Part shown: piece after piece, positions 1 through 8,568 of the stretch | Numbering within the stretch: position 1 is the stretch's first letter | How the letters are laid out: each line of letters opens with the position of its first letter | From: an uncultured Burkholderiales bacterium | GTDB lineage: Bacteria > Pseudomonadota > Gammaproteobacteria > Burkholderiales > Burkholderiaceae | DNA: 23,879 nt | Direction: 5' to 3' | Assembly (NCBI GenBank): GCA_946480465.1 | Contig: CAMLJY010000081.1 | Span: 1 to 23,879 of the forward strand | The notes under the pieces: model-generated | What the model was told of the DNA's origin: nothing | Seen by the model: only the letters and a program-made list of their open reading frames with translations | Databases searched by the model: none | Made by a program: the position numbers and the translations under genes

Positions 1-457
1 GCGAGCTGTTGCGGCCGGTGCGGAAGATGTACTTGTTCCACTTGTCGCCGGTGATCGCATCGGCCACGGCAGGCTCGACCAGCAGGATCTTCTTCGACTC
101 CTCCGCCACCGGCAGCATCGCCAGCGCCACACCCGAGGACGTGGGGCCGACCGCGATGTCCGCCTTGTCGTCGTTGTAGGCCGCGGCCAGCAGGCTCTTG
201 CCCAGGTCCGGCTTGCCCTGGTCGTCCTTCTCGATCACGACCAGCTTCTTGCCGTTGACGGCCATCGTGCCCTGCGTGGCGTATTCCAGGCCCATCATGA
301 AACCGAGCGCGGTCTGCTTGCCATAGGCTTCCAGCGGCCCGGTCTTGCTGTAGATGTGGGCGATGCGGATTTCGGACTGCGCCGAGGCGGCACCGGCGGC
401 CAGGCCCAGCACGGCGGCGGCAAGCACGGAACGGCGGGCGAGCGGGAATCGGATCAT
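1..457 (-). CDS. Branched-chain amino acid/amide-type ABC transporter substrate-binding protein (LivK-like), 3' part missing
   Basis: The N-terminal 152 codons of a periplasmic binding protein are present; the rest lies beyond the left edge. Residues 1-22 form a signal peptide (MIRFPLARR, hydrophobic core, ASA-Q cleavage site). The mature start EIRIAHIYSKTGPLEAYGK and the later DDQGKPD and VGPTSSGVALAM segments are typical of type I periplasmic binding proteins that feed Liv-type ABC transporters. ATG at 457 is supported by an AGGAGA site six bases upstream. Such proteins bind amino acids, amides or urea. The sequence does not look like canonical UrtA, so urea as substrate is only suggested by the nearby urease genes. 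A sigma-54-like promoter lies about 50 bp upstream of the start. The gene is divergent from the LuxR-type regulator. Confidence 0.88.
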   Translation of the reverse strand, partial: MIRFPLARRSVLAAAVLGLAAGAASAQSEIRIAHIYSKTGPLEAYGKQTALGFMMGLEYATQGTMAVNGKKLVVIEKDDQGKPDLGKSLLAAAYNDDKADIAVGPTSSGVALAMLPVAEESKKILLVEPAVADAITGDKWNKYIFRTGRNSS

Positions 458-508: not shown

Positions 509-524
509 TGCAATGCCGATGCCA
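509..524 (-). promoter_or_regulatory. Candidate sigma-54 (RpoN) promoter of the binding-protein gene
   Basis: Read on the minus strand the site is TGGCAtcggcaTTGCA. The consensus is TGGCACG-N4-TTGCW, with GG at -24 and GC at -12 separated by 10 bases. Both invariant dinucleotides, their spacing and the A after TTGC are present; only C6 and G7 of the -24 element differ. Transcription would start near 498, giving a leader of about 40 nt that contains the AGGAGA ribosome binding site. Confidence 0.6.
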
Positions 525-625
525 GTTCGCACCGGCCTGGGGCAAACCCCGAGGCCAGCGCACCGGGACCCGGCACGACGGCCCGATCCAGCGGACCGCC
601 GCGGGCACAGGCCTGCTGTATCCGT

Positions 626-636
626 CCGAACTTCGG
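626..636. promoter_or_regulatory. Palindrome 1 (CCGAA-C-TTCGG), candidate activator site
   Basis: A perfect 5-bp inverted repeat around a single central base at 631. It shares the core pattern CYGAASTTCRG with the longer palindrome centred at 663. The two centres are 32 bp apart, about three helical turns. It lies about 133 bp upstream of the predicted sigma-54 start, within the usual range for enhancer-binding activators. Confidence 0.5.
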
Positions 637-654
637 TCATTCATCGCCACGAGA

Positions 655-671
655 TGCCTGAAGTTCAGGCA
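655..671. promoter_or_regulatory. Palindrome 2 (TGCCTGAA-G-TTCAGGCA), candidate activator site
   Basis: A perfect 8-bp inverted repeat around one central base at 663. In a 17-base alignment it matches palindrome 1 at 11 positions. It is about 165 bp upstream of the predicted sigma-54 start and about 300 bp upstream of the LuxR-type gene. It could bind an NtrC-family activator or the neighbouring LuxR-type protein; the sequence does not decide. Confidence 0.55.
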
Positions 672-972: not shown

Positions 973-1722
973 ATGGTGGTTGAAGGCAACGGGCATGGCG
1001 GCGCGGTCGGATTGCGCGAGGACTGTCTGCGGGTGACAGAGGCCACCAGCCGCGAAGAACTGCTGCTGCAGACCATCGCCTTCGCGCGGCAGCTGGGTTT
1101 CGAGACGGTGGCGACGATGGTGGTGCTCGACCGACCCTGCGGCGATCCGGCATTCCACACGCTGCACAACACCCCGCCGTCGTACCGGGACGAGTTCCAG
1201 GACATGGAACAGGGGCGGCGCTGCCCGGTGATGCAGCACTGCAAGCATTCGGCCCGGCCCCTGGCCTGGAACCAGCACACCTACACCGCCGCGGGCCTGG
1301 GCGAGATGTGGGAGGGCCAGGCCGCGCACGGGCTTGGCGTCGGCCTGGCCGTGGCCTGGCACCTGCCGCGCGGCCGGCACTTCTTCATCGGCGTGGACCG
1401 CGACCAGGCACTGCCCGCCTGCCGCGTCGAGCTGACCCGGCTCACGGCCGAGTTGCAGCTGTTCGGCGCCCATGCGCAGGAGGCGGCGCTGCGCCTGCTG
1501 GACCCGCGCGAAACGCCGGCCGTACGGCCCGAGCTGACGGCGCGCGAGCGCGAGGCGCTGTGCTGGACCATGGAAGGCAAGACGGCCTGGGAGGCCGGCC
1601 GCATCCTCGGCATCAGCGAGCAGACCGTGGCGCGGCACCTGCAGAACGCCATCCGAAAGCTGGATGCGGTGAACAAGCACCAGGCGGTGATCAAGGCGCT
1701 GCGCCTCGGCCTGCTCGGCTGA
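973..1722 (+). CDS. LuxR-family transcriptional regulator with autoinducer-binding-like domain (LuxR solo)
   Basis: A 249-residue protein, the normal LuxR length. Residues about 10-165 form an autoinducer-binding-like domain. Residues about 185-248 are a LuxR helix-turn-helix (LTAREREAL, EGKTAWEAGRILGISEQTV, KLDAVNKHQAVIKA). By alignment to TraR positions W57, Y61, D70, P71 and W85, this protein has Tyr71, Phe75, Cys84, Pro85 and Trp99. Pro and Trp are kept, but the Asp that contacts the AHL amide is Cys (CPVMQHCKHS). No luxI-type synthase is in the window, so it is probably a solo sensing a non-AHL ligand; this is inference. The open frame runs back to 691, but conservation begins near 973. 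A GGGAGG sits very close to the ATG, so GTG at 976 is also possible. Confidence 0.85.
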   Translation: MVVEGNGHGGAVGLREDCLRVTEATSREELLLQTIAFARQLGFETVATMVVLDRPCGDPAFHTLHNTPPSYRDEFQDMEQGRRCPVMQHCKHSARPLAWNQHTYTAAGLGEMWEGQAAHGLGVGLAVAWHLPRGRHFFIGVDRDQALPACRVELTRLTAELQLFGAHAQEAALRLLDPRETPAVRPELTAREREALCWTMEGKTAWEAGRILGISEQTVARHLQNAIRKLDAVNKHQAVIKALRLGLLG

Positions 1723-2013
1723 TCCTGGCCTGAACCTTCCGATCCTGGCGTTCCGCTGCCCCCGCCATTCCCGCCATTCCCACCACTCCCCGCCGTTCGG
1801 CCGCCCACCGCCGCCGCCGATCGGCGCAATAACACAGGACCTGCTCGGCCCACAAGTACCGAGGCTTCGGCATGTGCCGCCGCCATGGGCCTGCGTAGGC
1901 TGCGCCAGCCCGCGGAAGTGGCCGACGCACCGCACGTCCGCCGGGCGGCCACCCCGTCCGCGGGAGGCCGCTGCACCGCGGCGCGCTACACGTCCAACCC
2001 ACCGGAGTACCCG
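1723..2013 (+). other. Intergenic region between LuxR-type gene and beta-helix lipoprotein
   Basis: No gene is supported. A degenerate 9-bp tandem run (CCGCCATTC twice at 1762-1779, then CCACCACTC at 1780-1788) lies shortly after the LuxR-type stop. A ribosome binding site (CGGAG at 2003-2007) serves the next gene. I see no clear terminator or promoter. Confidence 0.4.
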
Positions 2014-3579
2014 ATGCCCGAACAGTCCCCATCCCGCCTGCCCCGCTCCCTGTCTCTCAGTTGGCTGGCCGCGGCCGTGCTCGCCGGCTGCGGCGGTGGC
2101 GAATCAGCGCTGGACACCGACGCTGCCGCCAGCAGCCGCGCCCAGGCCCTGCAGTCAGGCGGCACCACCGCCATCACCTGGAAGCGCATCGCCGGCGAAG
2201 GCCAAACGTTCTGGGTCGGTGCGAACAGCACCGTGCGCTACGGCGCCAACGGCAAGTACGTCAAGAAGACCGTGTCCGGCAATGGCTACTGCACGAACAA
2301 GTTCTTCGGCAGCGATCCGGCGCCCGGCATCCTCAAGTCCTGCGAGGTGCTGCTGGCCTCCCCGGCCCCGGCTCCCGCCCCGGCCCCGGCCCCGGCCCCC
2401 GCGCCCGCCCCCACGCCGATCCCGCCCAACACCTACTACTTCTCGGACTGCCAGGAAGGCGCGGCAGCCGGTTGCGTGCCGGGCAACAACGCCAACGCCG
2501 GCACCACGCCCGCCACCGCCAAGCGCACGCTGGAAGGCTTCAGCGTCAACACGCTGCCGGCAGGGGCGCGCCTGCTGTTCGCCCGCGGCGGCGCCTGGGC
2601 GCAGTTCAGGGTCGCGCCGCTGGAGAACGCGCAGGCCACGCGCGAGCAGCCGCTCACCTTCGACGCCTACGGCACCGGCCCCGTCCCCTGGCTGAAGACC
2701 GCCAGCGGCACCGCCTTCGAATTCGGCCGCTGGCAAAGCCAGGTCAATGACGGCGGCTACGTGCTGCGCAACCTGAAGCTCGACGGCCTGGGCACCGGCA
2801 CCTGGGGGCTCTGGCTGCGCGACAACGTGCACGACATCCTGATCGAGAACGTCGAGATCACCGGCTTCGCGCTTGGCATCCACACGCAGAGCGGCGCGCC
2901 CCACGGCGTGCGCAACGTGCGGCTGCTGCAGTCGCGCCTGGCGCACAACCGCGAGATGGGCATCCTGGGGCACTTCAACGACTCGGTGATCGAGAACACC
3001 ACGTTCGAGCGCAACAACTTCAGCGGCAGCGTGTTCCACCACGCGATCTACCTGTCCCACGGCAACAACATCACCATCCGCGGCAACCGCTTCCTGCACA
3101 ACTCCGTCGTCAACGGCGAATGCACCGGCGGCAACGTGACCTTCCACGGCGTGATGGACAACGTGCTGATCGAGAACAACCGCATCGAGCAGGTGGCCTC
3201 CACCGGCGGCTGCTACGGCTTCTCGGTCACCGCGGGCTACGACACGGCCGAAAGCTTCACGCGCTTCGTGCTGCGCAACAACACGGTGATCAACCTCGGC
3301 AACTGCAGCTTCTGCATCAACTCCGCCCCGGGCGTGGTCGTCGAGGGCAACCTCAGCATCGTCGACCGCGTGCAGTACCACTCGGCGGTCAACATCGGCG
3401 GGCCGGTGGATGCGGGCGACGCGGCCGACACCGGCGCCATCGTGCGCAACAACCGCGCGTGCTATCCGGCCAACGGCGCCTACCAGTTCGGCGAGACGGT
3501 TCAGAGCCCTGGCGGCGAGGTCAGTGGCAACGTGGTCTTCCGTGCAACGGACGCCAACGCGCAGAACTGCCCGAGATAA
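2014..3579 (+). CDS. Secreted right-handed parallel beta-helix lipoprotein
   Basis: A 521-residue protein with a lipoprotein signal (lipobox VLAGC, Cys26, then GGGES; outer-membrane anchoring likely because +2 is not Asp). Residues about 45-115 are a small module with [28 protein letters not shown] and [13 protein letters not shown]; similar modules precede catalytic domains in secreted betaproteobacterial polysaccharide lyases (recollection). A (PA)n-rich linker follows at about 117-138. The remainder has repeated short beta-strand units ([69 protein letters not shown]) typical of pectate-lyase-like helices. It may bind or cleave a polysaccharide; no catalytic residues are assigned. ATG 2014 has CGGAG upstream; the frame stays open back to 1885 but lacks a signal peptide there. 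Confidence 0.85.
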
Positions 3580-4646: not shown

Positions 4647-6403
<1,757 letters not shown>

Positions 6404-7923: not shown

Positions 7924-8568
7924 ATGCTGACGATCAACAAGCTGATTCCCCGCGGCCGCGGGCTCGCGAAGGTGCTGCTGCAGCGCGCGCCGACCATCGC
8001 GCTGGACTGGGACGTGCGGCAGAAGAGCCGCTTCGATGGCACCGACTCCAGCGGCCGTGCACTCGCCGTCTTCCTGCCGCGCGGCACGCAGGTGCGCGGC
8101 GGCGACGTCCTCGTGGGCGAGGACGGCTCGCTCGTCGTCGTGCAGGCCGCCCCGCAACCGGTGCTGGTGGTGCGCCACTGCAGCGAGCACGGCTCGCCCT
8201 TCGACCTGATGCGCGCCGCCTACCACCTGGGGAACCGCCACGTGGCGCTGGAGCTGCAACCCGATCACCTGAAGCTCGAGCCGGACCACGTGCTGGCCGA
8301 GATGCTGCGCAACCAGCACCTGACCGTCACGGAAGCGCAAGCCCCGTTCGAGCCGGAGGGTGGTGCCTACGGGCAATCGCATGGCCACGGCCACGGCCAC
8401 GGGCAAGACGGGGCCGAGCCCCAGGGCGTCGCGATCCAGATCCACCCGCGCGGAGCACATGGGCACGGTACGCAGGCCGGGCATGGCGCCGGCCAGCAGC
8501 ATCGGCATGGCCACGTGCACGGCCCCGGCTGCGGCCACGACCACGACGACCACGGCCATTCGCATTGA
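7924..8568 (+). CDS. ureE: Urease accessory protein UreE (nickel metallochaperone) with long His-rich tail
   Basis: A 214-residue protein. The N-terminal domain (MLTINKLIPRGRG, DWDVRQKSRFDGTDSSGRALAVFLPRG, GGDVLVGEDGS) and the metal-binding domain (HCSEHGSPFDLMRAAYHLGNRHVALEL, VLAEMLRNQHLTV) match UreE. The tail from about residue 146 carries 17 histidines in roughly 68 residues (SHGHGHGHG, QHRHGHVHG, CGHDHDDHGHSH), as in the nickel-storing Klebsiella protein, plus one Cys. UreE hands nickel to the UreG-UreF-UreD complex for insertion into apo-urease. Its stop overlaps the ureF start by four bases (TTGA). The product is longer than tail-less UreE, consistent with nickel storage. Confidence 0.96.
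   Translation: MLTINKLIPRGRGLAKVLLQRAPTIALDWDVRQKSRFDGTDSSGRALAVFLPRGTQVRGGDVLVGEDGSLVVVQAAPQPVLVVRHCSEHGSPFDLMRAAYHLGNRHVALELQPDHLKLEPDHVLAEMLRNQHLTVTEAQAPFEPEGGAYGQSHGHGHGHGQDGAEPQGVAIQIHPRGAHGHGTQAGHGAGQQHRHGHVHGPGCGHDHDDHGHSH

Follow-up and report, generated by a model that had tools for sequence, protein, structure and literature searches.

Activators of the sigma-54 class open their promoters by ATP hydrolysis, and the sigma-54 consensus box reads TGGCAY-N5-TTGC. NtrC sites have the form TGCACC-N5-GGTGCA, and the NifA site is TGT-N10-ACA. HbcR (PA2005) of Pseudomonas is described as a sigma-54 activator that responds to (R)-3-hydroxybutyrate (PMC10482368), with a PAS domain at residues 17-123 (PMC8694187). 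The locus analyzed here lies in a window of 23,879 nucleotides, by which we mean the whole stretch of DNA under study, from an uncultured Burkholderiales bacterium. It resembles NtrC-controlled promoters in having a sigma-54 promoter with tandem dyads upstream and an NtrC-like dyad beside the -24 element, but its enhancer palindromes have another sequence, TGTCTGAAWTTCAGACA. With NifA and other Fis-HTH sigma-54 activators it shares a TGT...ACA dyad and the AAA+ and Fis-HTH layout of the linked regulator; unlike the NifA site, the dyad here is TGT-N11-ACA. As in the HbcR system, a PAS-bearing sigma-54 activator occurs in a 3-hydroxybutyrate (3HB) gene context (PMC10482368, PMC8694187), whereas, HbcR being compared by description only, the activator found here in Burkholderiales is linked to an operon for a depolymerase, an ABC transporter and an oligomer hydrolase, and to a TonB receptor. 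We consider it likely, with a probability of about 0.8, that the locus contains a sigma-54 promoter and two enhancer sites of a dedicated, HbcR-like activator for the use of extracellular polyhydroxybutyrate (PHB), a natural plastic, and 3-hydroxybutyrate.

The window has a GC content of 70% and includes a urease cluster. At its left edge, the first 152 codons of a gene for a Liv-type ABC substrate-binding protein (2..457, minus strand; Peripla_BP_6, Pfam 79 bits) start from an ATG at 457 and run off the end of the sequence; this is the first gene of the controlled operon, and the remainder, beyond the window, presumably matches that of the relatives. The part of the protein that aligns is 94% identical to its ortholog in Aquabacterium terrae, the closest named relative. 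Divergent from the binding-protein gene is a gene for a LuxR-family solo regulator with autoinducer-binding and GerE domains according to Pfam (973..1722, plus strand), which is probably a bystander in the window. The A. terrae locus (L003), the best relative found through the LuxR gene (60% identity), has the same layout of binding protein, divergent LuxR gene and lipoprotein-like ORF, the ORFs being judged alike by eye. In the window (973-3579), the ORF behind the LuxR-type solo gene is proline-rich and lipoprotein-like and matches no Pfam family; the arrangement in L003 (3848-6459) is similar. Since urease genes follow in the window, their control by the sigma-54 promoter was considered and rejected, the promoter being oriented away from them and the binding-protein ortholog of a related locus, L104, scoring 58 bits with the UrtA model against a cut-off of 493. 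An Rfam match to the 5' ureB sRNA (window 4810-5108, minus strand, 132 bits), antisense to the urease alpha gene, probably reflects cross-matching with the conserved coding sequence of urease.

The sigma-54 promoter that the original prediction had placed at 524-509 (509..524, minus strand; TGGCAT-N5-TTGCA, read as TGGCATCGGCATTGCA) scores 14.0 of 15.5. Its -24 GG and -12 GC, in a TGGCAY-N5-TTGC-type box, have the N10 spacing claimed for them, and the -12 GC lies 52 bp from the ATG. Judged by the position of the promoter, transcription would start at about 498. The two palindromes were found where they had been placed, CCGAA-C-TTCGG centered at 631 and TGCCTGAA-G-TTCAGGCA at 663, and a hand count of the minus-strand sequences reproduced the stated agreement at 11 of 17 positions. 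The distances of 133 and 165 bp given for their centers are those to the predicted transcription start; to the ATG the distances are 174 and 206 bp. Scored in bits by a weight matrix from whose training the window, L003 and L018 were excluded, the distal candidate enhancer site TGCCTGAACTTCAGGCA (655..671, minus strand) is strong (23.5 bits; 14/16 to the consensus) and the proximal candidate TGACCGAAGTTCGGACG (623..639, minus strand) is weak (13.9 bits; 12/16). These are the only two positions of the 23.9-kb window that reach 10 bits, and among 724,421 background positions of 43 loci, true promoters among them, 51 score as high as the proximal and 10 as high as the distal site. Taken alone the proximal site is weak; a second or third site is common in the corresponding stretch of the relatives. 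The shared motif that had been proposed is real, but its consensus over the relatives is TGTCTGAAWTTCAGACA, and the window sites are variants of it with a higher GC content. The spacing by three helical turns, to which attention had been drawn, is no conserved feature (phase vector 0.14 over 80 gaps in relatives).

Of 249 related genomes, 91 have a close ortholog of the A. terrae binding protein (E <= 1e-120), a number that includes A. terrae itself. We collected 85 upstream regions besides the window and later added three, giving 88; partial binding-protein matches (G006, G007, G022) and the second G087 copy were left out before counting. A sigma-54 box scoring at least 12.5 lies upstream of the binding-protein ortholog in 79 of the 88 relatives, and in the first set, which includes the window, 78 of 86 sequences have a box no more than 130 bp from the start. 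The palindrome TGTCTGAA-N-TTCAGACA matches at 11 or more of 16 positions in 70 of the 88 regions; this tally and that of the boxes include two short regions, L065 with 59 bp of upstream sequence and L120 with 207 bp. L065 was omitted and the window included in a count over 85 regions; in 69 of these at least 11 of the 16 positions of TGTCTGAANTTCAGACA are matched, compared with about 5 of 85 in shuffles. The same was done for a leave-one-out matrix, which finds sites of at least 12 bits in 71 of 88, compared with 1% of shuffles. An inverted-dyad search of the 78 promoters anchored at -24 was topped by the motif of the original prediction, CTGAA-N1-TTCAG occurring in 10 promoters and GTCTGA-N3-TCAGAC in 7, against largest counts of 7 and 3, respectively, over 20 shuffles. 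Two or three sites are present in 56 of the 78 promoters, most commonly separated by gaps of 18-19 or 24 bp. The commonest place of the nearest site is 59-60 bp upstream of the -24 T; the window sites lie at -139 and -107. A. terrae has only degenerate sites (best 11/16, 14.9 bits). The prediction would have failed had the palindromes not been conserved upstream of orthologous genes; they are. The promoters in which matches were counted are also those that served to choose the consensus; more independent checks come from the genome-wide searches and from six of the TonB-receptor promoters described below.

Searching relatives for the motif near sigma-54 promoters had also been proposed, and the sites proved to be concentrated in the operon promoter. 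With up to one mismatch, TGTCTGAANTTCAGACA matched eight sites in 159 genomes, seven in the operon promoter, with none in the reversed control; the exception is a site in G205 (L130). The search for TGHCTGAAWTTCAGDCA, again with up to one mismatch, covered 72 of the 75 genomes in which the activator described below and the operon occur together. It gave 38 sites and none in the reversed control, 27 being in the operon promoter, 3 in a TonB-receptor promoter and 8 elsewhere by hand tally. A two-mismatch pattern in eight genomes gave 55 sites, 13 in the operon promoter, compared with 21 in its reversed control, and did not recover the operon promoters of A. terrae and G028. Of the seven outside sites inspected among the eight, all except those in L138 and L142 lack a sigma-54-like box within 100 bp. 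These two loci (L138 7123-7217, L142 7429-7527) each have a single palindrome with a sigma-54-like box (14.0 and 13.5) within that distance and are possible further targets. Two more isolated palindromes (L155, L156) have no clustered partners.

Sigma-54 activator genes of one homologous group are linked to the palindromes. Of 16 annotated 20-kb loci, 13 encode a protein of one cluster, about 480-620 aa long, upstream of the binding-protein gene, sometimes with other predicted ORFs intervening. The L104 member has PAS, Sigma54_activat (PF00158, 222 bits) and HTH_8 (PF02954, 44 bits) domains. Its AAA+ domain with a GAFTGA-type loop (GAYTGA in L104, GAFTGA in the L133 sequence) and its Fis-type HTH are those of a sigma-54 enhancer-binding protein. 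The scores of the L104 protein with models of named activators fall below their cut-offs (NtrC, well below, with 282 against 558.6 and 228 against 620 bits; NifA, 303 against 529 bits), and the database names found for members of the group are generic, for example 'sigma-54 interaction domain-containing protein'. The recognition-helix region is conserved across the orthologs and different in paralogs such as that of L128. Activator matches at E <= 1e-115 occur in 85 of the 249 genomes. Of the 75 genomes holding activator and operon, many of them draft assemblies, 46 have the activator match on the strand of the operon and no more than 1.5 kb upstream of it; 20 have it at a greater distance upstream, with strand and contig still shared, and 9, A. 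terrae included, on a different contig. A sigma-54 box is present in all 75 activator-positive compared with 4 of 13 activator-negative genomes. The palindrome is present in 66 of 75, nine lacking a site of at least 11/16, compared with 4 of 13 (Fisher P 4e-5, indicative only, because the relatives share ancestry and are not independent). Box and palindrome occur together in the activator-negative genomes G010, G011 and G016. No such activator was found among the window proteins scanned.

Several loci vary this arrangement. In G115 (L103 11639-12868), the best enhancer-like sites near the operon lie about 1 kb from the promoter and adjoin the stop codon of the activator gene, and an ORF without a Pfam match, which may be spurious, lies in between. 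In G119 (L133 11419-11513), two sites and a sigma-54 box lie downstream of the activator gene; the binding-protein gene is on another contig, where its promoter has the motif too. In L128 (8326-11993), a paralogous sigma-54 activator gene stands between a binding-protein gene and a gene for 3-hydroxybutyrate dehydrogenase (TIGR01963, 350 bits), a further likeness to HbcR; the palindrome of this locus is at 8326, its sigma-54 box at 8428.

The operon in L104 starts with genes for the binding protein, a depolymerase, two ABC ATPases and two permeases, and ends with those for a 3HB-oligomer hydrolase, a second binding protein and an alpha/beta hydrolase. The depolymerase is assigned to the type-2 short-chain-length polyhydroxyalkanoate (PHA) depolymerases (405 bits, above the cut-off), and the oligomer hydrolase matches the Pfam family 3HBOH (PF10605, 1063 bits). 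The depolymerase cluster is present in 7 of the 16 annotated loci and the hydrolase cluster likewise in 7, and gene sets vary. Judged by these domain assignments, the gene context in relatives is that of PHB and 3-hydroxybutyrate use, a correction to the original prediction. A second target promoter, found through sites outside the operon, precedes a TonB-dependent receptor gene that is present in 8 of the 249 genomes (E <= 1e-150). All eight receptor promoters have a sigma-54 box (13.0-14.5) and palindromes, the best of 13.5-26.3 bits; they were kept out of matrix training, and the motif had led to those of G108 and G135 but not to the other six. The G108 promoter comes from the end of a contig in which 100 bases are identical to bases of the receptor contig. 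The findings also suggest 3HB or its oligomers as the cargo of both the TonB receptor and the Liv-type ABC system.

Abutting the -24 element at 528..546 on the minus strand is the dyad TTTGCCCC-N5-GGTGCG, 11/12 to TTTGCAC-N7-GTGCG. The original prediction was right that the palindromes do not follow the NtrC consensus but overlooked this dyad, which is the only NtrC-like one; upstream dyads of the NtrC consensus were not found. A dyad of this kind (at least 9/12) is present in 26 of the 78 promoters, the window included, and in 25 it is centered 11-13 bp upstream of the -24 T. An IHF-like site (at least 8/9) is present in 28 of the 78 and centered 12-14 bp upstream in 23; these counts were made without a shuffle control. 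Both elements are present in only 2 of the 78 promoters, about 9 being expected by hand arithmetic if they were independent, and neither is present in 26; they mostly occupy the same place and seldom co-occur. TTTGCMC is found upstream of the sigma-54 box in 6 of the 8 TonB-receptor promoters. An exact dyad-plus-sigma-54 pattern, so strict that most dyad promoters are missed, gave eight matches in 32 genomes, six in the operon promoter.

The dyad raises the alternative that NtrC is the activator and the palindromes have another role. The resemblance of TGCCCC-N5-GGTGCG to an NtrC site and its recurrence in a third of the promoters speak for this; however, the dyad abuts -24 rather than lying upstream of it and is absent from 52 of the 78 promoters, the two exact matches of the strict pattern outside the operon promoter have no palindrome in 12 kb, and NtrC alone leaves the linked activator unexplained. 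We regard control by NtrC as unlikely. Another candidate is the divergent LuxR-type solo, which could bind the palindromes and control both the transporter and itself; gene and operon are divergently oriented in the window and in L003. Conservation of the sites extends, however, to loci without this gene as a neighbor: among the 16 annotated loci, the LuxR ORF of the A. terrae locus (L102) has no cluster partner in the other 15. LuxR-type regulators are not known to be sigma-54 activators, and lux boxes are of even length, both of which count against this candidate; its role as the regulator appears quite unlikely.

Two further readings deny the palindromes a function in binding protein. Terminators or remnants behind the activator gene would explain their place at its stop codon in relatives such as L104. 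In the window, however, the loop of the palindromes is a single base and a T run is absent; they recur as two or three sites in most promoters and are also found with no adjacent activator gene in the window, in A. terrae (weakly) and in the TonB-receptor promoters, making this origin highly improbable. Chance inverted repeats in GC-rich DNA have in their favor that short palindromes are common and that the proximal one is weak; the conservation of the palindromes, their excess over shuffles and their genome-wide concentration in the operon promoter contradict chance, which we consider exceedingly improbable.

The reading as enhancer sites of a dedicated activator agrees with the main proposal of the original prediction, that the palindromes are sites of an undescribed activator controlling the transporter through sigma-54. 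Conservation of the palindromes in orthologous upstream regions and linkage of a sigma-54 activator gene support that proposal. The activator, with its N-terminal PAS, AAA+ sigma-54-interaction and Fis-type HTH domains, would bind the tandem dyads TGTCTGAAWTTCAGACA, and its PAS domain would be switched by (R)-3-hydroxybutyrate or a related product of PHB breakdown. A signal of the 3HB type is plausible because HbcR responds to (R)-3-hydroxybutyrate (PMC10482368). The bound activator would loop onto RNA polymerase-sigma-54 and hydrolyze ATP to open the promoter; IHF or some other factor would assist beside -24. The operon so controlled would encode the binding protein and the Liv-type ABC transporter, joined in many relatives by a 3HB-oligomer hydrolase and an extracellular PHA depolymerase. 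In the window organism, the activator gene is expected elsewhere in the genome, as in A. terrae.

Among the matches listed in literature searches, no title or abstract opening describes the motif or the regulon. A DNA code and a target operon can be proposed for an apparently unnamed sigma-54 activator, together with a likely signal, and the control of extracellular PHB-degrading enzymes becomes testable. The case also shows that regulatory sites in many genomes can be predicted from a motif noticed in a single raw sequence. More tentatively, the Burkholderiales activator could sense 3HB or 3HB oligomers and run a regulon that cuts, imports and hydrolyzes PHB, with two interchangeable promoter architectures, an IHF-like site or an NtrC-like dyad with some bound factor beside -24. 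If such a regulon exists, the depolymerase, TonB receptor, ABC transporter and oligomer hydrolase would together provide for uptake across both membranes.
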